Shown here: in pieces, positions 42,120-54,503 of the stretch | How the letters are laid out: every line of letters begins with the position of its first letter | Position numbering within the stretch: position 1 is the first letter of the stretch | Source of the DNA: Kangiella sp. TOML190 | Lineage (GTDB): Bacteria; Pseudomonadota; Gammaproteobacteria; Enterobacterales; Kangiellaceae | Length of the DNA: 64,000 bases | Assembly: GCF_023706045.1 (NCBI RefSeq) | Contig: NZ_BQYL01000001.1 | Location: forward strand, 1,966,001 to 2,030,000 | Direction of reading: 5' to 3' | Translations under genes and position numbers: made by a program | Notes under the pieces: generated by a model | What the model was told of the DNA's origin: nothing | Databases searched by the model: none | What the model saw: the letters and a program-made list of their open reading frames with translations, nothing else

Positions 42120-42511
42120 CTATTTGGTGTAGTGATTTATCCGGCTTTTCATCGAGACTCGAGGAATGTAGCTATGATACATTCTTGAGCTGCTGCTATG
42201 GCCAGAATAATAAGATGGATAATAGCTATCTTGCCGACTCTTTTTGAAGTTAGTCTTGGCCTGTGTATCAGTTAAGATACATTCATCTTTATATTTGGCG
42301 TAACAGCTTGCGATTGATTTAGAAGTTTTTTCACTTAGTGCCTGGTTGTAATTGTTAAGCGCTTGTTGATAACTTAAAACGCATACGTTTCCTTGTGCAA
42401 AAATAATGCAATCATCGGCTTTAGGAGCTTCAGCTCTTTCACTATTTTGGTTTTCTGCAAAGCCGTTGTAACTAATAATATTAATGAGATGATGATTTTT
42501 GTTGTTTTCAT
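42120..42511 (-). pseudogene. small secreted Cys-containing protein, frameshifted in the signal peptide
   Basis: A gene for a secreted protein of about 130 residues, broken by one missing base. From ATG 42511, with a perfect CAAGGAG site, the frame reads MKTTKIIISLILLVTTA, a signal peptide, then goes out of frame. The next frame continues at FAENQNSERAEAPKADD. Adding one T at the TTT run (A run at 42459-42461) joins them into ...VTTAFAENQ, with an AFA signal-peptidase site. The mature part has four Cys (ADDC, GNVC, IASC, DEC), possibly two disulfides, and a Ser/Tyr/Arg-rich tail. Either a sequencing or assembly slip, or a phase-variable or dead gene. Confidence 0.75.
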
Positions 42512-42632
42512 GATTAACTCCTTGGTAATTCCAACCTGTAAATCCTATCAATGACATACATCTGATGTCAAACGTCACCTATCAAGCTATAATCAATATT
42601 AAAAGCATAAACGATGTAATAAACTAATAAAT

Positions 42633-44040: not shown

Positions 44041-44063
44041 AAAAAAGGGCGCTTAAAGCGCCC
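44041..44063 (-). terminator. intrinsic terminator after the S9A peptidase (end of accessory locus)
   Basis: On the minus strand, GGGCGCTTTAAGCGCCC followed by TTTTTT; 19 bases past the stop of the peptidase gene. Confidence 0.85.
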
Positions 44064-44081
44064 TTGATTTAACTTTTAATT

Positions 44082-46259
44082 TTACTTTAGCTGATCTGCT
44101 AAGTAGGTATAAATGAGTGCATTCAAACTAGCACTTTGTTTGTTATTTGAAGCGCCGCCGTGGCCACCTTCGGTATTTTCGTAATACAGCACATCGTGTC
44201 CTTGAGCTTGCATCTTAGCGACCATTTTACGCGCGTGACCAGGGTGAACTCTGTCGTCGCGAGTTGAGGTCGTAAAGAATATTTTAGGGTATTCGGTATC
44301 CTTATCCACATTATGGTACGGCGAGTAGGTTTTGATGTATTCCCACTCATCTTCATTATCTGGATTGCCGTATTCACCCATCCAGCTGGCTCCAGCTAGC
44401 AGCTGATTAAAGCGCTTCATATCCAATAATGGAACCTGACAAACCACCGCGTTAAACAGATCCGGCCGCATAGTGGCAACCGTACCTACCAGCAAACCAC
44501 CGTTTGAGCCACCTCGTATCCCTAAATGGCGAGGAGAAGTGATTTTATTAGCGACTAGATCTTCGCCAACGGTAATAAAGTCGGTAAAGGCTATGTGGCG
44601 ATTTTTTTTCAGTGCCGCCTGATGCCATCTTGGGCCATACTCACCGCCGCCACGAATGTTCGCTAGCGCGTAAACACCGCCTTGCTCTAACCAATCAAAA
44701 CCGATGGTTGGCGAGTAGCTAGGGCGCAGTGAGACTTCAAAGCCACCATAGCCATAAAGTAGGGTAGGGTTTTTACCGTTAAATTCAGTATCTTTATGCA
44801 TGACCAAGAAATAGGGGATCTTAGTACCGTCTTTAGCGGTAGCAAATTGTTGCTCAACTTTGTAAGGCTGCGCATCAAAAAATGCTGGTAAGCTCTTCAA
44901 AACGCTAGTGCTATTATTGCTGCTATCGAAATAATACAAGCTACTTGGGGTTAAGAAGTTGTTGTAGTCGATAAAGAAATTATTATGCTGGTCACTCACT
45001 CCCGCAACTGAAATAGCGCCTAAATCGGGCATATCAACTTTTTCCTTTGACCATTTGCCATCGTCAAATTGATATCGATAGAGTTCGCTTGCCACATCTT
45101 TTAAGGTGTTAACTAAAATATAATCTTTGGTCGATAACACTCCTGAAATAGAAGTATTAGCATCAGGGATAAAGACTTCTGTAAAATTAGTTTTCCCAGC
45201 AAGGTAGTCGTCAATATTGATCGAAATTAGTGCAGCTTGCGGATAAGTTTTTTCACCCAGTGTCCAGTCGGATTTTAACTGAATCAAAACTTGATCATTG
45301 CTAATAGCGTTTATTGAGCTATCCTTTGGGCGTTCGAATTGATGTAACCCTTCGTCAGTGATTAGGTAGATGTCCGATGTATAGAAAGTTAGTCCTTGAT
45401 AAATAACTTTGTAAGATTTGCCTTTATCATGTAAGACAAATGCAGCGACCCAAACGTCTTTCTTTTCACCTTCAAAAATGGTTCTAGCCTTATCTAACGC
45501 TTCGCCGCGCTTCCACTCTTTAACGATGCGCGGGTAGCCAGAATCGGTCATGCTACCGTCACCAAAGTCGGTACCCACATAAATTGAATTTTCATCAATC
45601 CAGCTGACGCTAGATTTAGCTTCAGGCAGATAAAACCCGTTTTCAACAAAGGACTTTGAAGCAACATCAAACTCACGGACTACGGTTGCATCAGCGCCGC
45701 CACGAGACAAACTTAATAAACAGCGTTTATATTCAGGGTATAAGCAGTTAGCGCCTTTATAAACCCAGTTTTCGCCTTCTTTTTCGGCTAACTTATCCAG
45801 ATCTAAAATAAGTTCCCACTCGGGATTGTCTTTCTTATATTCAGCAAGCGTTGTACGTCGCCATAAACCCCGTTGGTTATTAGAATCTTTCCAGAAGTTA
45901 TAAAAATAGTCTCCCATTTGTTCGACGTAGGGAATCCGCTCGTCTGAGTCGTAAACTTTAAGGTTTTTTTCAAACAACTCTTGATAGAGCGGTTTAGATT
46001 TTAAATACCCTAAAGATTTTGTGTTGTTTTCTTCTACCCAAGCTAAAGCCTTTTCGCCTTCGACTTCTTCTAACCAGATATAAGGATCTTGCTCAGCTTG
46101 CTGGATTTGTTGTTCTTCGGCTTCTTTAGGCTGTTGTTCGACTTGTTTTACCGCTACAACTTCTGGCTTGGAAGCCGGTGTTTGTGTCTGATCGGCGCTA
46201 TCACAGGCATATAACGCTACCGACATCAGCGAAAAAAGCGCTAAGTATTTGATCTTCAT
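44082..46259 (-). CDS. lipoprotein prolyl oligopeptidase, S9A family
   Basis: A 725-residue serine peptidase. ATG 46259 is chosen because it is followed by a lipoprotein signal (FSLMSVALYAC) and has a GGGGA site; a longer frame adds 25 unlike residues. A Gln/Glu-rich linker, the N-terminal cap (DPYIWLEEVEGEKALAWVEEN) and a seven-bladed propeller (90-470) precede the hydrolase domain. Triad: Ser near 585 (GGSNGG), Asp near 668 (TRDDRVHP), His near 700 (EGGHGG). It probably cleaves proline-containing peptides at the envelope. Last gene of the halogenase locus. Confidence 0.92.
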   Translation of the reverse strand: MKIKYLALFSLMSVALYACDSADQTQTPASKPEVVAVKQVEQQPKEAEEQQIQQAEQDPYIWLEEVEGEKALAWVEENNTKSLGYLKSKPLYQELFEKNLKVYDSDERIPYVEQMGDYFYNFWKDSNNQRGLWRRTTLAEYKKDNPEWELILDLDKLAEKEGENWVYKGANCLYPEYKRCLLSLSRGGADATVVREFDVASKSFVENGFYLPEAKSSVSWIDENSIYVGTDFGDGSMTDSGYPRIVKEWKRGEALDKARTIFEGEKKDVWVAAFVLHDKGKSYKVIYQGLTFYTSDIYLITDEGLHQFERPKDSSINAISNDQVLIQLKSDWTLGEKTYPQAALISINIDDYLAGKTNFTEVFIPDANTSISGVLSTKDYILVNTLKDVASELYRYQFDDGKWSKEKVDMPDLGAISVAGVSDQHNNFFIDYNNFLTPSSLYYFDSSNNSTSVLKSLPAFFDAQPYKVEQQFATAKDGTKIPYFLVMHKDTEFNGKNPTLLYGYGGFEVSLRPSYSPTIGFDWLEQGGVYALANIRGGGEYGPRWHQAALKKNRHIAFTDFITVGEDLVANKITSPRHLGIRGGSNGGLLVGTVATMRPDLFNAVVCQVPLLDMKRFNQLLAGASWMGEYGNPDNEDEWEYIKTYSPYHNVDKDTEYPKIFFTTSTRDDRVHPGHARKMVAKMQAQGHDVLYYENTEGGHGGASNNKQSASLNALIYTYLADQLK

Positions 46260-46344
46260 TGATTTCCCCATTAGCTCAAAACCTAATGAGGATAACAAAG
46301 CAGTTAGCCGACTGCCAGAGCTTAATTGTTTCAAAAGTTAAAAA

Positions 46345-47970
46345 TTAGACCCAGCCGTTAGGTACGGCGATTTTTACGTATTGTTGCATTCCCAGTTTTT
46401 GTTGTAACCACTGCTCATGGCTAGGTAATCTTTCTTTAGCTAGGGCTAATCGTTGCAGAATTAATGGTGAACGACTGGTTTTAGGTGCATTTTCTAATGG
46501 TAAGGCTCCGTAGCGCTTTTCAAACTCCATACTGTAGAGGATATACTGATAATTACTCTTATCCCAGATTCCGGCGGTGTCTACAGATGGCCGAATATCC
46601 CCACCAGTTAAATGAGAAGCTTGATTCGATTGAGCTAGCCCCAAAAACGCTTGATCCTCGAAATCTAAAGGTGAGGGTGGCTTTTTTTTCCAGAAATCGA
46701 ATTTGGCCAATAAGCGATCGGTAATATGTTCTTCTTGTTGTACCGTTCGCCAAAACTCGGTATCGGTTCTTTGGGTTAAACAGTAATGCATATTAATAAA
46801 GTCTAAAATCTCATAGAATTTATTGGAGTGGATTCGATTGTAGCGAAAAGCCATCGCTTTCATTTGTGATTCATCTTGAGGAAAATGCTGGGCGAGCATA
46901 ACTGCGCCTAGATCACTTAGGTAAAGCCCTGTGGATTCCAAGGGTTCTATAAAACCACCTGAAAGGCCTACTGCAATGCAGTTTCCTTTCCATACCTGGT
47001 GACGGCGTCCGACTTTGAAGAAAATGGTTCGTGATTCAAGTTTATCGATGTCACCACCTTGATAGTTTCGCAGTTCTCTTTCTGCTTGCTCTGAATCTAT
47101 GAAAGCGCTGGAGTGAACGTAGCCAATGGAGCGCTGATTTTGCATTGGAATATCCCAAACCCAACCATTTGATAAGGCTGTCGCCGTTGTATAGGGGCGA
47201 ACCATTCCGGGATAATAGGTTTCGTAAGGAATATGCATTGCGATTGCTCGATCACACAGTAACCATTGTGAACAGTCTTCCCAGCCAACGTTGAGCGCTT
47301 CGTCAATCAGTTTTGCTTTAAAGCCAGTACAGTCAACGAATAAGTCGCCTGTAACAGAGCTTTCGATATCTAGATCGACGGATTGTATATGTCCATTGTC
47401 TTTCAAATTGACTTGGGTAACATTGGCTAAAGTGTGCTTGACCCCTCTTTTTACCGATAAATCTCGAAGTAAGTCGGCAAACTTTTGGGCATTCATATGG
47501 TATGCATAACTAAAAGGAGCGCCCATATTCCATTTGCCAAGCATCTGAGGAGATAGTCCTAATTCACATATGTCTGGTTGGGCTGAACAGGTTTGAACAA
47601 ACGGAATACTTCTGTCACTCGCTAACCACTGTTGAACGCTTGTGTCAATTGGCCCAGTGTTTAGTCGGTTAAATGGGTGATAATAAAAAGAGTTGTCATT
47701 TCTTAACCAGTTGACGTATTTTATGGATTGCTTAAATGAACCATCAGTTGCTTTTAGAAAATCTATTTCGCTAATACCAACCACTGAAAGGATATGCCGA
47801 ATCGATAAAACTGTGGCTTCGCCTACTGAAATTCTGGGAATATCGGGGGATTCAATTAACTCAATTTCTACCTTAGGTTTATTGCCATTTCTATTGATAG
47901 CACCGTTCAAGTAAGCTGCTACCATCCAGCCTGATGAGCCACCGCCAACAATTACAATCTTTTTCTTCAT
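46345..47970 (-). CDS. flavin-dependent tryptophan-type halogenase 1
   Basis: A 541-residue FAD enzyme. The Rossmann motif GGGSSGWMVAAYL, the GEAT loop (GEATVLS, where Pro is replaced by Leu), the catalytic Lys in FKQSIKYVNW, the halogenase motif GWVWDIPMQNQRSIGY and the Glu-containing PLESTGLYLS are all visible. FADH2-dependent halogenases chlorinate or brominate indole-like rings through a Lys-bound hypohalite; substrate unknown here. It overlaps the previous halogenase by one base (TAATG), so they are coupled. Confidence 0.92.
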   Translation of the reverse strand: MKKKIVIVGGGSSGWMVAAYLNGAINRNGNKPKVEIELIESPDIPRISVGEATVLSIRHILSVVGISEIDFLKATDGSFKQSIKYVNWLRNDNSFYYHPFNRLNTGPIDTSVQQWLASDRSIPFVQTCSAQPDICELGLSPQMLGKWNMGAPFSYAYHMNAQKFADLLRDLSVKRGVKHTLANVTQVNLKDNGHIQSVDLDIESSVTGDLFVDCTGFKAKLIDEALNVGWEDCSQWLLCDRAIAMHIPYETYYPGMVRPYTTATALSNGWVWDIPMQNQRSIGYVHSSAFIDSEQAERELRNYQGGDIDKLESRTIFFKVGRRHQVWKGNCIAVGLSGGFIEPLESTGLYLSDLGAVMLAQHFPQDESQMKAMAFRYNRIHSNKFYEILDFINMHYCLTQRTDTEFWRTVQQEEHITDRLLAKFDFWKKKPPSPLDFEDQAFLGLAQSNQASHLTGGDIRPSVDTAGIWDKSNYQYILYSMEFEKRYGALPLENAPKTSRSPLILQRLALAKERLPSHEQWLQQKLGMQQYVKIAVPNGWV

Positions 47971-49598
47971 TAAGCGACCCAACCTTTAGGCTTAATAGTA
48001 GTTTTGTAATCTTTCATACCTAATGCTTTTTGTAACCAGATATGGTGAGCTGGAAGTTGCTGACGAGCCATTTGTAAGCGTTGTAAAATGTAGGGATGTA
48101 TATTTACCACTTGCCGATTATTTCCATACAAAGCATCATAGTTTTCGCTATTAAAATGCATTCCATATAAAATACATTCATAACTTTCATGATTCCATAA
48201 TCCTGCTGTGTCTACAGGGTTTCTAGCATCAAAAGTTTCGCAAGTAAAATTAAAAGCCTGCTCCTTTTGGTCTAAGAAAAACTGGTCATCAAAATCAGAC
48301 ATCATAGGAGGGCGCATTTTCCAAAAGTCTAGCTTTGCTTTTAGTCTAGGATTAATTCTTTCCGGTTTTTGCACTTCCTTCCAAAATTCTGTATCGGTTC
48401 TTTTACTCAAGCAGTAATGCATATTGATAAAATCGAGAATTTCATAAAAACGATTTGATAAAATTCGGTTGTATCTAAAGGCCATAGGCTTAAGATCCTT
48501 ATCGGTATAAGGGAAGTATTCTGCTAAAGCAACAACCCCAAGATCGCTCAAATAAAGCCCTGTTGATTCCAGCGGTTCGATAAAACCGCCTGAAAGTCCA
48601 ATAGCTACACAGTTACCTTTCCAGTTTTGTTGTCTACGCCCAACTTTAAAGTAAACGGTTCGTGAATCCAGCTGTGAGGTGTTACCGCCTTGATAAGAGC
48701 GCATTTCTTTTTCCGCATCTTCTTCGGATATAAAAGCACTAGAGTGAACATAGCCAATGGATCTTTGACTTTGCATCGGAATGTCCCAGATCCAACCGTT
48801 AGAAAGGGCGCTAGCAGTAGTGTAAGGGCGTACCATGCCTGGGAAATAATCCTCGTAAGGAATATGCATGGTTATGGCTCTATCGCAAAGTAGCCATTGT
48901 GAATGATCTTCCCAGCTGACATTTAACTTTTCTTCGATCAATTTTGCTCGAAAACCGGTGCAGTCTATAAATAAATCGGCTTCAATTGTTTGTTCGGTAT
49001 CAGTTTTAACTGCAGTAATAGTTTGACTGTCTTTCATGTCTATATCAATGACGTTAGCAAGTATGTGCTTAACGCCTTGAGCAACTGAAATATCTCGCAG
49101 ATAGTCTGCAAACTTTTGAGCATTCATATGATAGGCGTAGCTAAGTGGCGCACCCATATTGTTGCGTCCGAAACCTAAAGGGCTTAAGCCCATCTCACAA
49201 ATTATTGGCTGTTCGGAGCATGTCTCCATAAATGGAATTGATTGATCACTCTCAAGCCATTCTTGTGCTGAAAAATCTAAAGGTTGCTTGCGGGCTCTTG
49301 AAAAAGGATGATGATAAAAGCTGTTATCTTTATGTAACCAATTGGTATATTTTATCGATTGTTTAAAAGTCGCATCGGTTGCTTTCATGAATTCGGCTTC
49401 GTTTACGCCAATCACATGGAGCAAATGCCTCATCGAAGGGATTGTCGCTTCGCCGACCGAAATTCGAGGAATATCTGGAGATTCAATTAAGGTTATTTCA
49501 ACTTCAGGCTTGATTCCATTGTTTAGTGCTTTTTGTAAATAAGCCGCAGCTATCCAACCGGAAGAGCCACCGCCAACGATAGTTACTCTACGTTTCAT
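47970..49598 (-). CDS. flavin-dependent tryptophan-type halogenase 2
   Basis: A 542-residue paralog of the next gene, identical over many stretches (GEATIPS, FKQSIKYTNW, GWIWDIPMQSQRSIGYVHSS, PLESTGLYLS). It keeps the usual Pro of GEATIPS. The C-terminus differs most (residues 430-510), the region near the substrate lid in these enzymes, so the two may act at different sites or on different substrates. A FADH2-supplying reductase is not in the window. Coupled to the sulfotransferase by a 4-base gap. Confidence 0.92.
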   Translation of the reverse strand: MKRRVTIVGGGSSGWIAAAYLQKALNNGIKPEVEITLIESPDIPRISVGEATIPSMRHLLHVIGVNEAEFMKATDATFKQSIKYTNWLHKDNSFYHHPFSRARKQPLDFSAQEWLESDQSIPFMETCSEQPIICEMGLSPLGFGRNNMGAPLSYAYHMNAQKFADYLRDISVAQGVKHILANVIDIDMKDSQTITAVKTDTEQTIEADLFIDCTGFRAKLIEEKLNVSWEDHSQWLLCDRAITMHIPYEDYFPGMVRPYTTASALSNGWIWDIPMQSQRSIGYVHSSAFISEEDAEKEMRSYQGGNTSQLDSRTVYFKVGRRQQNWKGNCVAIGLSGGFIEPLESTGLYLSDLGVVALAEYFPYTDKDLKPMAFRYNRILSNRFYEILDFINMHYCLSKRTDTEFWKEVQKPERINPRLKAKLDFWKMRPPMMSDFDDQFFLDQKEQAFNFTCETFDARNPVDTAGLWNHESYECILYGMHFNSENYDALYGNNRQVVNIHPYILQRLQMARQQLPAHHIWLQKALGMKDYKTTIKPKGWVA

Positions 49599-49602
49599 TT
49601 TA

Positions 49603-50388
49603 TTATTCGTATCCTAAAATTTTTCTCAGTCCAGGAGCTGCATAATCCACAAGCTGTTTTTGTATTTCTGGTAGTTCATTGGGTATGTCGAATTTCTGGC
49701 CATATAAATTTTCACGTGCAGTGCCACTTTGTTTGCGATCGGAACCGACCAATACACGCTCTTTCCAATCATCCGGGATATTGGTGATACCGCAGTTTGT
49801 TAACAGTTCATGAAAATAATGTTCAGCCTTATCCGAATCAATATCTTTTAAGTGCGTAATGATATCTTCATACTTAACAACCTTTGCATTAGTACCAAGC
49901 CAAGAAACGGCATTATGAGTAAATATCTCGTAAAGGGTAGGGGCTTTCTGATAAATGCCAAAAATCATCATGTTATAGATTTGTTCAAGGGTAAACTCTT
50001 CTCCTCTAAGGTGCTCTAGATTACCTTGAAAGGAGTCCGATAAAAAAAATCGGGTACGGGCTAAAACCCAGTTATAGGGATCTCTAACTACAACTATGTG
50101 TTTGACATTGTGCATAGCATAAGCAGATTCGTCAGAAAAGAGCAGGTGTCCCCAACTTAATTTTGGCGTGGTTTTAAACGCAGCAAGATGATCTTTTAGT
50201 ATGGGAATTTGGATAAATGCTTGATGGTACTGCTGATTAACAGGTACAAACATTCGAACAATATTTTTGATTAAGTGAGTTCCGCACTTCGGAACCGAAT
50301 TTAAAAACACTGATTGTTTTAATGGCTCTTGAATATAATTTTCATTGAGCTCATTTAAACTATCAGGTTTGGCAATGATTCTAGGCAT
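49603..50388 (-). CDS. sulfotransferase family protein
   Basis: A 261-residue cytosolic sulfotransferase. The 5'-phosphosulfate loop is SVPKCGTHLIKNIVR (near 31-45); the 3'-phosphate loop is VVRDPYNWVLARTRFF (near 98-113); GTARENLYG near 220 resembles the C-terminal PAPS-binding region. It would move sulfate from PAPS to a hydroxyl or amine of an acceptor. The placement directly before two halogenases suggests a common acceptor. A terminator separates it from the TonB receptor, so it probably has its own promoter. Confidence 0.88.
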   Translation of the reverse strand: MPRIIAKPDSLNELNENYIQEPLKQSVFLNSVPKCGTHLIKNIVRMFVPVNQQYHQAFIQIPILKDHLAAFKTTPKLSWGHLLFSDESAYAMHNVKHIVVVRDPYNWVLARTRFFLSDSFQGNLEHLRGEEFTLEQIYNMMIFGIYQKAPTLYEIFTHNAVSWLGTNAKVVKYEDIITHLKDIDSDKAEHYFHELLTNCGITNIPDDWKERVLVGSDRKQSGTARENLYGQKFDIPNELPEIQKQLVDYAAPGLRKILGYE

Positions 50389-50489
50389 GTTTTTTGTATT
50401 TTCTAATGAGGGATAACTATATAACTATTAAATTTAGAATAAAAGAGATTTAAAAAAGCCGGCTCTTGCCGGCTTTTTTAATGGAGCGA
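50389..50489 (-). terminator. terminator between TonB receptor and sulfotransferase
   Basis: On the minus strand, AAAAAGCCGGCAAGAGCCGGCTTTTTT at 50452-50479, ten bases past the receptor stop. It would end most receptor transcripts before the enzyme genes. Confidence 0.8.
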
Positions 50490-53453
50490 CTAGAAGTCGT
50501 ATTTTGCATTAACAAAGATACTTCTTCCAACCCAGTCATACTGACTATAGAACGCAGAGTTACCAGCTCTGGAACCCATGCCTCTACTGATTCTTGGCGG
50601 CTCCTTATCGAACATATTCCTAACACCTACGACAACGCCGATGCCGGACTCTTCATGATCATACCCAAATGAAAGGCTGTGATACATGATACGGGGAGTA
50701 TCTCCTACTCTGCGAGTTTCATTACCTAAGAAGGTAAATGTATCCGTAACACCAGTAACATCAGGATCATTTTCAGTTGGTCCAATAATATTGGTAAACC
50801 AGCTTACATTCCAGTTGTTGCGGTCATACCGCGCCAAGAAGGTGCCCGTATGCTTCGGTTCGCCGAGTGTTCCATTAAAGTCTTGAACTGTATCAGCAAA
50901 AATACCGCGAGCAGACTCGTCTTGAATTGTATGCTTGGTTTGTAGTGTCAATTTACCTGAAGGTAGATCTGTTCGGTAGGTAATATCAAAATCGTAACCT
51001 TTGTTATCTTGACGAGCGATATTGATAAAGCTATCCCTTACTACAGTGATCCGCATATCTTCGTTAGGACCTGTAGCACGATCAAACTGAGCACATAGAG
51101 GATCATTAGGGAAGAACTCAGAAGCGTAACAACGACCAACTAAGTTTGCAGCACCTAATTGAGTTACTTCGTCTTCAATTTCAAAGTCAAAGTAATCAAC
51201 TGAAATACTTAAGTCAGCGAACTCTGGACGCCAGACAATTCCCCAAGTATTCGATTCAGAAGTCTCAGGTTTCAGGATTCCTGCACCACCGCCCGTAAAT
51301 ACGGTTGCCGAAATAGCACCACCGGCAAAAGTTGGAGCAAGTCCATCAGCGGCACAGTTATCAGCCACGCGTTGAGAGATTTGACCATCCGCTAAGTTCT
51401 GACCCCAATTAATACAAGGATCAATAGCTCTTTGATTCACAAACGAGGTTTGATCAGCAAGATATAACTCGTACAAAGCAGGGGTTCTAAATGAAGTTCC
51501 GTGAGAACCACGGATTGTCCAACCGGCACCAATATGCCAAGCTAAACCTACTTTATAAGTTGTGTCAGAATCAATATCTTTGACGTCGGTGTAACGTGCA
51601 GATGCGGTTAGATTCAATTCTTCGACGCCCGGTAAGCCAGCCAAAAGTGGTAGATTAATTTCACCAAAAACTGCATAAGTATCAGAGTCGCCCTCGGTTA
51701 TACCTGCGCCAGTTGAACCCCATGTGTTGTTGGCTAAAGTTACATCGCCAGGTTTATCTTTAATATCATCAATTTGATATTGAAGACCGAATGCAACGCC
51801 TGCAACCCCGTGAGGCATTTCGAACGCATCACCTGTGATAGTAGCTTCCAGAGTATGTTGCTTATAGACAGTATTACCAGTCTCTTTACCAAACAAGAAA
51901 GCCCTATCTTCTGCAGAAATATTGCCTGCTAAGAACTCAGGATCAAGCCAAGCGACATCACGACACGGAACTCCACGAACAGGAGTATTCATACCCACAC
52001 AACTGCCGGAAAAGCCTTGGAAGATTGTATAAGGAGAAATAGCATCATCATAGATAATGGCATTTTCATAATCGCCATCACTACGGCTAGATTGAATTGA
52101 TGCGTCCCAGTACCACTCACCTAGTTGTCCTTTTAAACCAACCACAAAACGTGAATAGTCAACGGTGATGTTTTGGAAACTATGATCGGTAATAGCCGTC
52201 GGACTAAGCCATTGAGCTCCAGTCCATCCCGCGCTTAATGGCTCTCCGCCAAAGAAGTTTTCGTTGTACTTGTATGTCCAAAACTGTCTGTAACTTTGAG
52301 ACTCTGTTTCACGACGATTGAATAAAACCTCAGCATAACCACTTAAAGTTTGAGTAAAGTCATAATCACCTGTAGCCATCACAGTGCTTCTTGTGACTTC
52401 TGGGATCAAGCTTTGACGATCTTGAAAAGGATGATCGGCATTTAAAACCGGAGAAACGCCATTTACAGCAAACCAACCCGGAGGAGGTGAGAAATCGGCT
52501 GGACCTTGGGGATTAGGTGCATCGATGTAGTTGCCCAAATCACCATCGTAGTCAAATTGCGCTAAGTTTAGACGCAAACCATTGGAGTCGGTTAAGTTTG
52601 AAGCGCCGTAATCGTATAGCCAAACGTGTCCCCACGATAGATCACTACAATGAGGTTTCCCTGTGCGTGGGTCAATAATGTCTGTTCTAGCGCCAGTAGC
52701 AGCATCAAAATAATATCGCTCACCACAAGCAAAGTAGTCTCGATCTCCTCGTTTTAGCTCGGAAGTGACATTATGATCAAATGTTAGACGATAACTACCA
52801 TTGTCAAATGAGTCACCCCAGCTACCACTAATACGTGTCTGCTCACCACCATCATCTTCAGGTTGTGAGCGGAAAACCTCAATGGTTCCGCCATCACTTG
52901 TTTTGGTAATGATATTGACTACACCAGCGACAGCATCTGAGCCGTACAAGGACGAAGCGCCATCCTTTAAAATTTCAATACGCTCAACCGCTGATAAAGG
53001 AATTGTATTAAAATCGAATGCTGAGGTTGCGCCTCGCGTTCCCGCAGGGCCAGCTCGCCGGCCATTTAATAATACTAGGGTTCTACCGGCTCCCAAGCCA
53101 CGCAAGGAAAGAGTTTCTACACCAGTACCACCATTTTGAACGAAAGCAGAAGATGTTGCTGCAGTAACCTGAGCCGAGCCTGATGCTAAGGTGCTTTCTC
53201 TTAACAGCTGTCCGACATCTGTGATACCACGGTCAATAGCATCTTCAGCGATAATGACTTCAATAGGAACCGTGTCGTTTGCTTCATCCGCACGGATCCT
53301 TGAACCCGTTATGATTACTTTATTTGAGCTTTCAGCACTATCGTCATCAGAGGGTGCTTCTGCTGCATAAAGATTCAAAGACGAAAAAGCAAGCGCGCAT
53401 CCTATTGCCTTAGTGATAGGTTTTATTTTTAAACCTAAAGGATGACTTTTCAT
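50490..53453 (-). CDS. TonB-dependent outer-membrane receptor
   Basis: A 987-residue receptor. The signal peptide is residues 1-31 (ends NLYAAEA). The plug (50-175) contains VIITGSRIRADEAN, the TonB-box-like start, LSLRGLGAGRTLVLLNGRR and EILKDGASSLYGSDAVAGVVNIIT. A 22-strand barrel follows and the last residue is Phe (NAKYDF), as outer-membrane insertion requires. Cys are scattered in the extracellular loops (CGERYYF, CVGMNTPVRGVPC). The large, loop-rich barrel suits a peptide, glycan or aromatic ligand. Adjacent halogenases and sulfotransferase hint at the same small molecule. Confidence 0.95.
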   Translation of the reverse strand: MKSHPLGLKIKPITKAIGCALAFSSLNLYAAEAPSDDDSAESSNKVIITGSRIRADEANDTVPIEVIIAEDAIDRGITDVGQLLRESTLASGSAQVTAATSSAFVQNGGTGVETLSLRGLGAGRTLVLLNGRRAGPAGTRGATSAFDFNTIPLSAVERIEILKDGASSLYGSDAVAGVVNIITKTSDGGTIEVFRSQPEDDGGEQTRISGSWGDSFDNGSYRLTFDHNVTSELKRGDRDYFACGERYYFDAATGARTDIIDPRTGKPHCSDLSWGHVWLYDYGASNLTDSNGLRLNLAQFDYDGDLGNYIDAPNPQGPADFSPPPGWFAVNGVSPVLNADHPFQDRQSLIPEVTRSTVMATGDYDFTQTLSGYAEVLFNRRETESQSYRQFWTYKYNENFFGGEPLSAGWTGAQWLSPTAITDHSFQNITVDYSRFVVGLKGQLGEWYWDASIQSSRSDGDYENAIIYDDAISPYTIFQGFSGSCVGMNTPVRGVPCRDVAWLDPEFLAGNISAEDRAFLFGKETGNTVYKQHTLEATITGDAFEMPHGVAGVAFGLQYQIDDIKDKPGDVTLANNTWGSTGAGITEGDSDTYAVFGEINLPLLAGLPGVEELNLTASARYTDVKDIDSDTTYKVGLAWHIGAGWTIRGSHGTSFRTPALYELYLADQTSFVNQRAIDPCINWGQNLADGQISQRVADNCAADGLAPTFAGGAISATVFTGGGAGILKPETSESNTWGIVWRPEFADLSISVDYFDFEIEDEVTQLGAANLVGRCYASEFFPNDPLCAQFDRATGPNEDMRITVVRDSFINIARQDNKGYDFDITYRTDLPSGKLTLQTKHTIQDESARGIFADTVQDFNGTLGEPKHTGTFLARYDRNNWNVSWFTNIIGPTENDPDVTGVTDTFTFLGNETRRVGDTPRIMYHSLSFGYDHEESGIGVVVGVRNMFDKEPPRISRGMGSRAGNSAFYSQYDWVGRSIFVNAKYDF

Positions 53454-53795: not shown

Positions 53796-54503
53796 CTACA
53801 ACTTGACATCCATATATATTGGTAAGTGATCGGAGGCTCGTTTAGCTAGGGTAGATTGGTGAACCCCAAAGTCGCTTATGTCGAGTTCGCCGTAAATCAC
53901 GAAGCGATCCAGCGGCAGCTTAGGGTTTGAGGTATGAAAACTAGGTCCTGGGGTGATAACTTTAAAATCTTCAGCAAAAGCGCGAGCTGCTTTGCCAAAA
54001 GTGCGCCATTCGTTAAAATCGCCGGCAATAATACAGGGCGTATCATCCTTGGAGTCTTCAATGTAATTGACTAGGGCAGCGACTTGTTGCTGACGGGCTT
54101 TGCCTGCCAGTGATAGGTGGGTACCGATAATGCGCAGCTGTTTGTTATCCTTGAGCTGGATTCTGGTCAGTACCGCGCCTCTGGGTTCTAACCCTGGCAG
54201 TGTGATAGCGCAGGAGTTAATTTCCTGTAGTTCATTTTTTAATAAAACCGTATTGCCATGCCAACCGATACTCTGTTCTAAATTGTCGATTGCCACCGCA
54301 TGGTAGTTCATGTCCTGCTTAAGATTATCAACTGGTAGGGCACTCTGGCGGCTGCCAAAACGTTTATCGGCTTCTTGCAACGCGATAATGTCGGCATCAG
54401 TTTCAGCGAGTACGGTTAAAATACGCTCAGGGTTACGCTTCCAATCGAGGCCAACGGCTTTGCGGATATTGTAGCTAACGATTCTGATGGAAGTTTGCGA
54501 CAT
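53796..54503 (-). CDS. endonuclease/exonuclease/phosphatase (EEP) family hydrolase
   Basis: A 235-residue cytosolic protein. Metal and catalytic residues: SYNIRKAVG (Asn), ALQEAD (Glu), GTHLSLAG (His), AGDFNEWR (Asp and Asn) and the final SDHLPIYMDV (Asp-His). Substrate could be DNA, a phospholipid or a nucleotide; the group with this order (EEP, about 235 residues) is poorly characterised. It follows the E2 gene past a terminator and is probably independent. Confidence 0.85.
   Translation of the reverse strand: MSQTSIRIVSYNIRKAVGLDWKRNPERILTVLAETDADIIALQEADKRFGSRQSALPVDNLKQDMNYHAVAIDNLEQSIGWHGNTVLLKNELQEINSCAITLPGLEPRGAVLTRIQLKDNKQLRIIGTHLSLAGKARQQQVAALVNYIEDSKDDTPCIIAGDFNEWRTFGKAARAFAEDFKVITPGPSFHTSNPKLPLDRFVIYGELDISDFGVHQSTLAKRASDHLPIYMDVKL

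Follow-up and report, generated by a model that had tools for sequence, protein, structure and literature searches.

The natural substrates of halogenases encoded beside TonB-dependent receptors are an open question. In receptor-halogenase-SapC loci of the chitin/GlcNAc type, for which Xanthomonas and Caulobacter presumably provide further examples, a receptor gene lies near a gene of the halogenase family PF04820. RaxST, which we take to sulfate a tyrosine of the peptide RaxX, would offer a parallel as a bacterial sulfotransferase that uses PAPS and may have a peptide as its substrate. BrvH of Brevundimonas BAL3 (PDB 6frl) is a PF04820 halogenase whose natural substrate is unknown; according to its description, a second halogenase gene adjoins brvH, and the open active site of BrvH is likened to that of the peptide halogenase MibH (PMC5945002). 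In the openly accessible literature, no publication was found which treats a sulfotransferase, a TonB-dependent receptor and a halogenase together, and the novelty of such an arrangement is provisional to that extent. Cassette-like loci are not described in the accessible part of PMC11337851 (tryptophan halogenase, TonB-dependent receptor, Kangiella).

Here, we analyzed a window of 64,000 nucleotides from Kangiella sp. TOML190, to which all coordinates refer. A first-pass annotation had listed five genes on one strand, namely a TonB-dependent receptor, a PAPS sulfotransferase, two halogenases and a lipoprotein oligopeptidase, with a terminator after the first. All five are present on the minus strand at the positions given below and belong to the families named, except that no Pfam or NCBIfam model covers the sulfotransferase. 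The terminator was found as well, at 50481-50450, with a 14-pair stem and a T-run. The features are:

53453-46345, minus strand: four-gene accessory cassette in the order TonB-dependent receptor, terminator, sulfotransferase (ST), halA, halB
50490..53453, minus strand: TonB-dependent receptor of 987 aa, leading the cassette (Pfam Plug and TonB_dep_Rec; model pLDDT 83.4)
52608..52634, minus strand: receptor codons 274-282, the aromatic strip W-G-H-V-W-L-Y-D-Y, in a large loop assigned as extracellular
52203..52226, minus strand: receptor codons 410-417, W-T-G-A-Q-W-L-S, of which S417 and W415 track ST linkage
50450..50481, minus strand: predicted intrinsic terminator in the gap between receptor and ST (14-pair stem and T-run)
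49603..50388, minus strand: PAPS-type sulfotransferase (ST) of 261 aa, assigned by conserved residues and predicted fold
47970..49598, minus strand: halA, predicted flavin-dependent halogenase of 542 aa (PF04820, 442 bits)
46345..47982, minus strand: halB, tandem paralog of halA (PF04820, 430 bits; 65% identity to halA)
44082..46259, minus strand: S9A prolyl-endopeptidase-type lipoprotein peptidase (Pfam Peptidase_S9 and N-terminal propeller), judged a neighbor and not a member of the cassette
44045..44065, minus strand: predicted terminator 3′ of the peptidase gene, from sequence

The end of ST and the start of halA are 4 bases apart, and for halB the ATG at 47970, which touches the halA stop codon, is a likelier start than 47982. 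The open reading frame of the peptidase spans 46334-44082, with the ATG followed by a lipobox at 46259 as the likelier start. GC content per kb is 0.39-0.44 in the cassette vs. 0.39-0.51 in the flanks, with no clear difference from all flanks, and no repeats bracketing the cassette were seen at its boundaries. Between the gene for PDH E2 and the cassette lies a gene of the endonuclease/exonuclease/phosphatase family (53796-54503), which is unmatched in the compared regions of the Kangiella genomes G016, G011, G014, G007 and G018. A 152-aa open reading frame at 42120-42578 has no Pfam or NCBIfam match.

Both halogenases match Trp_halogenase (PF04820) far above its curated cut-off of 21 bits (halA 442, halB 430), and K79, E344, WxWxIP and GxGxxG are intact in each. 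We take this Lys, this Glu and the two motifs to be the catalytic or diagnostic features of PF04820 flavin-dependent halogenases. K79 and E344 are each found in 107 of 108 halogenases and both together in 106, while the remaining motif positions are kept in 100-108 of the 108. By profile and motifs, halA and halB are flavin-dependent halogenases (variant A, PF04820) with predicted activity. The best PDB matches are 9ltb and 9lu2, and BrvH (6frl) is matched with a phmmer E-value of 7.3e-69. In Arsukibacterium sp. MJ3 (L053:9983-11614), halA is broken into two open reading frames, which represents either a pseudogene or a sequencing error.

At E ≤ 0.001, neither Pfam nor NCBIfam yielded a family for the ST, and its sequence found no meaningful match in PDB. 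In an alignment of 55 members sharing 54-86% identity with the window ST, the residues P33, K34, G36, H38, H81, R102, D103 and P104 are invariant (55/55). The protein contains PKxGTH, presumably the PAPS-binding loop, and what we assume to be the downstream RDP motif. An AlphaFold2 model (pLDDT 90.4) gave 59 Foldseek matches at E ≤ 0.001, and all 50 listed are sulfotransferases, headed by PAP-bound cytosolic sulfotransferases (SULT; best E-value 1.4e-5), with 10-17% identity among these 50 and a TM-score of about 0.5. We conclude that the window ST has the predicted fold of a PAPS sulfotransferase and belongs to a family that has no model in Pfam or NCBIfam; the earlier designation as PAPS sulfotransferase is borne out by conserved residues and predicted fold, despite the missing family match. 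Carriage of the cassette on plasmids was considered and rejected, as ST is unmatched in 72,556 plasmid records.

The peptidase had been proposed as a dedicated member of the pathway. Its best PDB match is 4hvt and it is nearest to prolyl endopeptidases; in the model for oligopeptidase B it scored 163.5 bits at a cut-off of 1313. The earlier naming as an oligopeptidase is corrected accordingly. A five-gene pathway of this organism including the lipoprotein peptidase would be in line with the position of its gene, 85 bases 3′ of halB on the same strand, and with the enrichment of S9 peptidases beside the module in other lineages (see below). However, an ortholog (69-85% identity; fragments in G003 and G012) is present in 20 of 20 Kangiella genomes, whereas the cassette receptor (at least 64%) is found in five, the window genome and four others with orthologs of 64-76%; ST and halA occur in the same five. 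In the cassette-free genomes G016, G011 and G007, the genes PDH E1a-E1b-E2-S9A are contiguous, and in a blastn comparison with the empty sites, the stretch between PDH E2 and S9A that holds the cassette finds no match. In G018, the cassette occupies the same gap in inverted orientation, and in G014, E2-S9A is intact with the cassette about 430 kb away. Because of this phyletic pattern and the empty sites, dedicated membership of the peptidase was rejected; it is probably a genus-wide bystander, and we regard the five-gene pathway as very unlikely.

In other lineages, S9 peptidases account for 19 of 157 genes adjacent to the module vs. 2 of 630 farther away, a contrast based on profiles built from the neighbors themselves, uncorrected for kinship and including the Kangiella S9A in 3 of 18 loci. 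An S9C-type peptidase adjoins the receptor at five of nine loci without linked ST (L181, L197-L200) and is absent beside the receptor at L180, L182, L193 and L196. This recurrence of S9 peptidases suggests peptide uptake as the role of the receptor family. The S9C peptidases were also considered as lasso-peptide isopeptidases, an idea set aside, as the best PDB matches of the S9C protein of L057 are amino-acyl and acylamino-acid peptidases.

A search of genome contigs with halA yielded 105 loci, of which the best 80 were analyzed, membership being assigned by BLASTP at E ≤ 1e-5 within the fetched DNA. Receptor, ST and halogenase occur together in 65 of these best 80, including L064 and L097 with a receptor of just 37-38% identity. 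The others comprise 4 loci with receptor and halogenase, 1 with ST and halogenase, and 10 with halogenase alone. Among the 14 loci lacking ST, seven are contigs shorter than 7 kb (L052, L080, L082, L089, L091, L096, L104), the contig of L072 stops inside the receptor, and in L037, equated with G028 from its position, the ST is on a separate contig. The five remaining ones (L100, L101, L107, L108, L111) carry a protein from another sulfotransferase cluster instead, which in L101 and L107 consists of TPR and Sulfotransfer_3 (Pfam); in L107 and L111, the halogenase is near a contig end. The loci belong to marine bacteria of scattered lineages, including Kangiella, Pleionea, relatives of Idiomarina, Arsukibacterium, Porticoccaceae, Woeseiaceae, Robiginitomaculum, Hellea and others. 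Gene orders vary: all three genes may be colinear (receptor-ST-halogenase), the halogenase may converge on ST-receptor, or it may diverge from receptor-ST. In Idiomarina and Pseudidiomarina (L049-L051, L054-L056, L058, L060, L061), the cassette lies between the grpE and dnaK genes, as judged by eye. Thus, of the conserved co-occurrence of all five families looked for after the first-pass annotation, the part concerning receptor, ST and halogenase holds across many genera, but that concerning the S9A peptidase does not.

Of 394 genomes from the order, 15 contain a strong ST match (at least 432 bits), and the list holds just one more, at 25 bits. The receptor profile was run on what is taken to be an identical draw (same order, equal size, no more than two candidates scored in each genome), and it scored at least 1438 bits in exactly these 15 of the 394. 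Three further order genomes have receptors of 1096-1231 bits and no ST match; the line of 1400 bits separating the two groups was set after the score gap had been seen. ST adjoins the receptor in 14 of the 15 genomes. Among 369 genomes drawn from the class, a strong ST match was found in the window genome only. The cassette loci are related by descent, and none of the tests in this analysis corrects for kinship. A mere chance neighborhood without joint function, for which the terminator separating receptor and ST might be cited, is extremely unlikely: restriction of both genes to the same few genomes, their adjacency even after relocation and the single strong ST match in the class draw speak against it. 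For receptor and ST, it is already contradicted.

Of the 15 genomes with ST, 10 also contain a halogenase of the halA type (at least 60%). In the five others (G022, G049, G457, G671, G713), which lack it (best match at most 39%), ST is still located beside the receptor. From 289 genomes drawn across the phylum, three more loci were obtained (L192, L194, L195) that have a receptor with linked ST and no recognized halogenase within the fetched 19 kb. Conversely, two of 61 relatives, G035 and G026, contain a halA-like gene without ST (54%, or 61% for a fragment at a contig end). Based on the five ST genomes and the linked loci free of halogenase, we conclude from gene content that receptor and ST form the core of the cassette, with the halogenase as a frequent third member. 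Mirror-tree correlations over 60 loci (ST-receptor 0.73, halogenase-receptor 0.81, ST-halogenase 0.68) ignore the species phylogeny and carry little weight.

The neighborhoods were searched for genes supplying or moving a substrate. Among 96 neighbors scanned, no inner-membrane transporter is found in the 25 commonest of 148 Pfam families, and neither exporter nor regulator is among the commonest neighbor families. No NRPS, PKS or RiPP scaffold family is among the listed neighbor families (open reading frames of at least 80 aa). Since the cassette relocates as a unit, in both orientations and without recognized biosynthetic genes, its enzymes probably act on an imported, a universal or a cassette-encoded substrate. 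If universal, a metabolite of the tyrosine, tryptophan or indole type might be converted to a halogenated, sulfated signal or metallophore-like compound which the receptor re-imports. TonB-dependent receptors commonly import metallophores, and the presence of ST and receptor in the same genomes as well as the occurrence of the cassette in unrelated hosts, with no scaffold genes recognized, would agree with such biosynthesis and re-uptake. We nonetheless consider it unlikely, given the lack of exporter and regulator in the commonest neighbor families, the halogenase missing from five of 15 ST genomes, and the S9C peptidases adjoining receptors without linked ST.

The receptor itself gives hints of the ligand. 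It consists of plug and barrel (Pfam), with 22 strands assigned by hand from DSSP of the model, in which residues 276-280 form a strand. Its profile matches PDB entries (CirA, BtuB, FepA and others) only over the plug and the first part of the barrel, and no ligand is indicated. All 8 conserved Cys and 11 of 18 conserved Trp/Tyr fall in loops assigned as extracellular from the strand order of the predicted model. Conservation averages 0.648 in the loops, 0.600 in the strands and 0.764 in the plug; loops at least as conserved as barrel strands point to one shared ligand.

To find residues tracking ST, 76 receptors counted as ST-linked, including L037 and tandem second copies, were contrasted with 10 relatives from 9 loci, few and partly related, in which ST is absent from the fetched 12-19.5 kb (genome-wide absence being established for G761, G645 and G034). 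Positions 274-282 form a strip of the pattern W-G-[HQ]-x-W-x-Y-[DN], where W274 (76/76 linked vs. 1/10 unlinked), H276 (72/76 vs. 0/10), W278 (76/76 vs. 5/10), Y280 (76/76 vs. 2/10) and Y282 (73/76 vs. 0/10) differ between the groups. The same applies to Y394 and W415 (each 70/76 vs. 0/10) and S417 (76/76 vs. 0/10). Trp/Tyr make up 5 of 13 tracking positions vs. 15 of 206 others (p = 0.003; 73 linked vs. 4 unlinked sequences), in a test devised after inspection of the list and with few, related unlinked sequences. A first receptor tree groups four unlinked receptors as a clade separate from the linked receptors; after the addition of nine sequences, they are placed among the linked receptors (support 0.63). 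The L193 receptor belongs to a five-member clade (support 0.999) whose other members are linked, its placement within that clade having a support of 0.14. Genome G945 contains both the ST-linked L192 receptor, with the aromatic strip, and the related L193 receptor, with neither adjacent ST nor strip.

Taken together, receptor subfamily and ST family occur together, almost always at one locus, and are usually accompanied by at least one halogenase whose motif residues are intact. Our preferred reading, held tentatively, is a self-contained accessory cassette of a receptor plus tailoring enzymes, by which a conserved aromatic ligand is imported and then sulfated and halogenated. The ligand would be one conserved aromatic, probably peptide-derived compound. 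It would be bound by the aromatic strip (W274, H276, W278, Y280) in the large extracellular loop and be imported through the receptor, driven by TonB energy. Host S9 peptidases could trim it in the periplasm, and a host permease would carry the aromatic piece into the cytosol. There, the PAPS-dependent ST may sulfate a hydroxyl and the FADH2-dependent halogenase may halogenate the ring, leaving the ligand inactivated or re-used. The empty site, the inverted insertion and the second insertion site within Kangiella support this reading. The import-and-modify pathway of the first-pass annotation is retained as far as receptor, ST and halogenase recur and S9 neighbors fit a peptide-like ligand, but not with S9A as a dedicated member. 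A terminator-like hairpin is present in 51 of 58 same-strand gaps between receptor and ST, often with a GCCGAC/GTCGGC core, as counted with a simple detector of our own without shuffled control. The simplest reading of its conservation after the receptor gene is that much receptor and, through read-through, little enzyme would be made.

On the other hand, ligand and enzymes may never meet, as no inner-membrane transporter is among the commonest neighbor families and ST and halogenases, judged by eye, lack a signal peptide. The halogenase missing from five of 15 ST genomes also counts against import and tailoring, as do related loci of another halogenase clade. In relatives of the window genome, such a halogenase is accompanied by one Pfam-confirmed receptor and by SapC at each of L146, L147, L149 and L150. 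A GH20 chitobiase is also present at L146 and L147, a BadF-type kinase at L146, L147 and L150, and an amidohydrolase at L146. Chitobiase and kinase beside these genes make a chitin-type sugar the likely ligand, which could not be halogenated.

Such loci would be understandable if the enzymes acted on the receptor polypeptide, with ST, and possibly the halogenase, modifying it in the cytosol before export, for instance at conserved extracellular Tyr/Trp. The receptor is the only candidate substrate traveling with the self-contained cassette, an inner-membrane transporter would be unnecessary, and the conserved extracellular aromatics track linked ST. The open, MibH-like site described for the related BrvH (PMC5945002) also fits. 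Furthermore, other lineages have Asp/Asn beta-hydroxylases (PF05118) and ST-hydroxylase-TPR fusions near the module (13 of 157 adjacent vs. 11 of 630 farther genes). PF05118 and TPR proteins with a sulfotransferase-like N-terminus were noted close to modules of receptor, ST and one to three halogenases, at L087:13246-15255 (weak Sulfotransfer_1 match) and L109:6994-9042 (no Pfam support for this N-terminus); L074, L075 and L102 contain proteins of the same similarity cluster. However, no receptor residue tracks the halogenase, as no position conserved to at least 95% in 67 receptors is lost in two or more of five halogenase-lacking loci. Residues tracking ST are equally expected of a ligand-binding site, and Y280 is kept in two of the ten unlinked receptors, which are few and partly related. 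We regard maturation of the receptor as unlikely, on a par with biosynthesis and re-uptake. Slightly less likely is the wider proposal that ST and halogenase modify aromatics of the partner receptor before export, thereby tuning its ligand site, and that receptor-linked halogenases are receptor-modifying in general; if true, it would explain why halogenases accompany receptors with unrelated ligands.

The cassette may help to answer which substrates halogenases beside TonB receptors act on. It confines the question to a set of three or four genes, offers a sharply delimited receptor subfamily, an ST family lacking a model and candidate tracking residues, and makes the substrate directly testable, as sulfation is easily traced with labeled sulfate. 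Compared with RaxST/RaxX, neither a precursor peptide nor a dedicated exporter was recognized here, short open reading frames being outside the systematic search. SULT and Teg14, the latter at Foldseek rank 34, share the predicted fold of the window ST, but at only 10-17% identity and with no match to ST at the level of sequence family or PDB. The receptor-halogenase-SapC loci resemble the cassette in placing a receptor near a PF04820 halogenase; they differ in having SapC and sugar genes and in their halogenases, which share 38-42% identity with halA, whereas the cassette has ST, and SapC was found neither among 8 window proteins (Pfam) nor among the 25 commonest neighbor families. With BrvH, the cassette halogenases share family PF04820 and the unknown natural substrate; here, they are joined by ST and a receptor.
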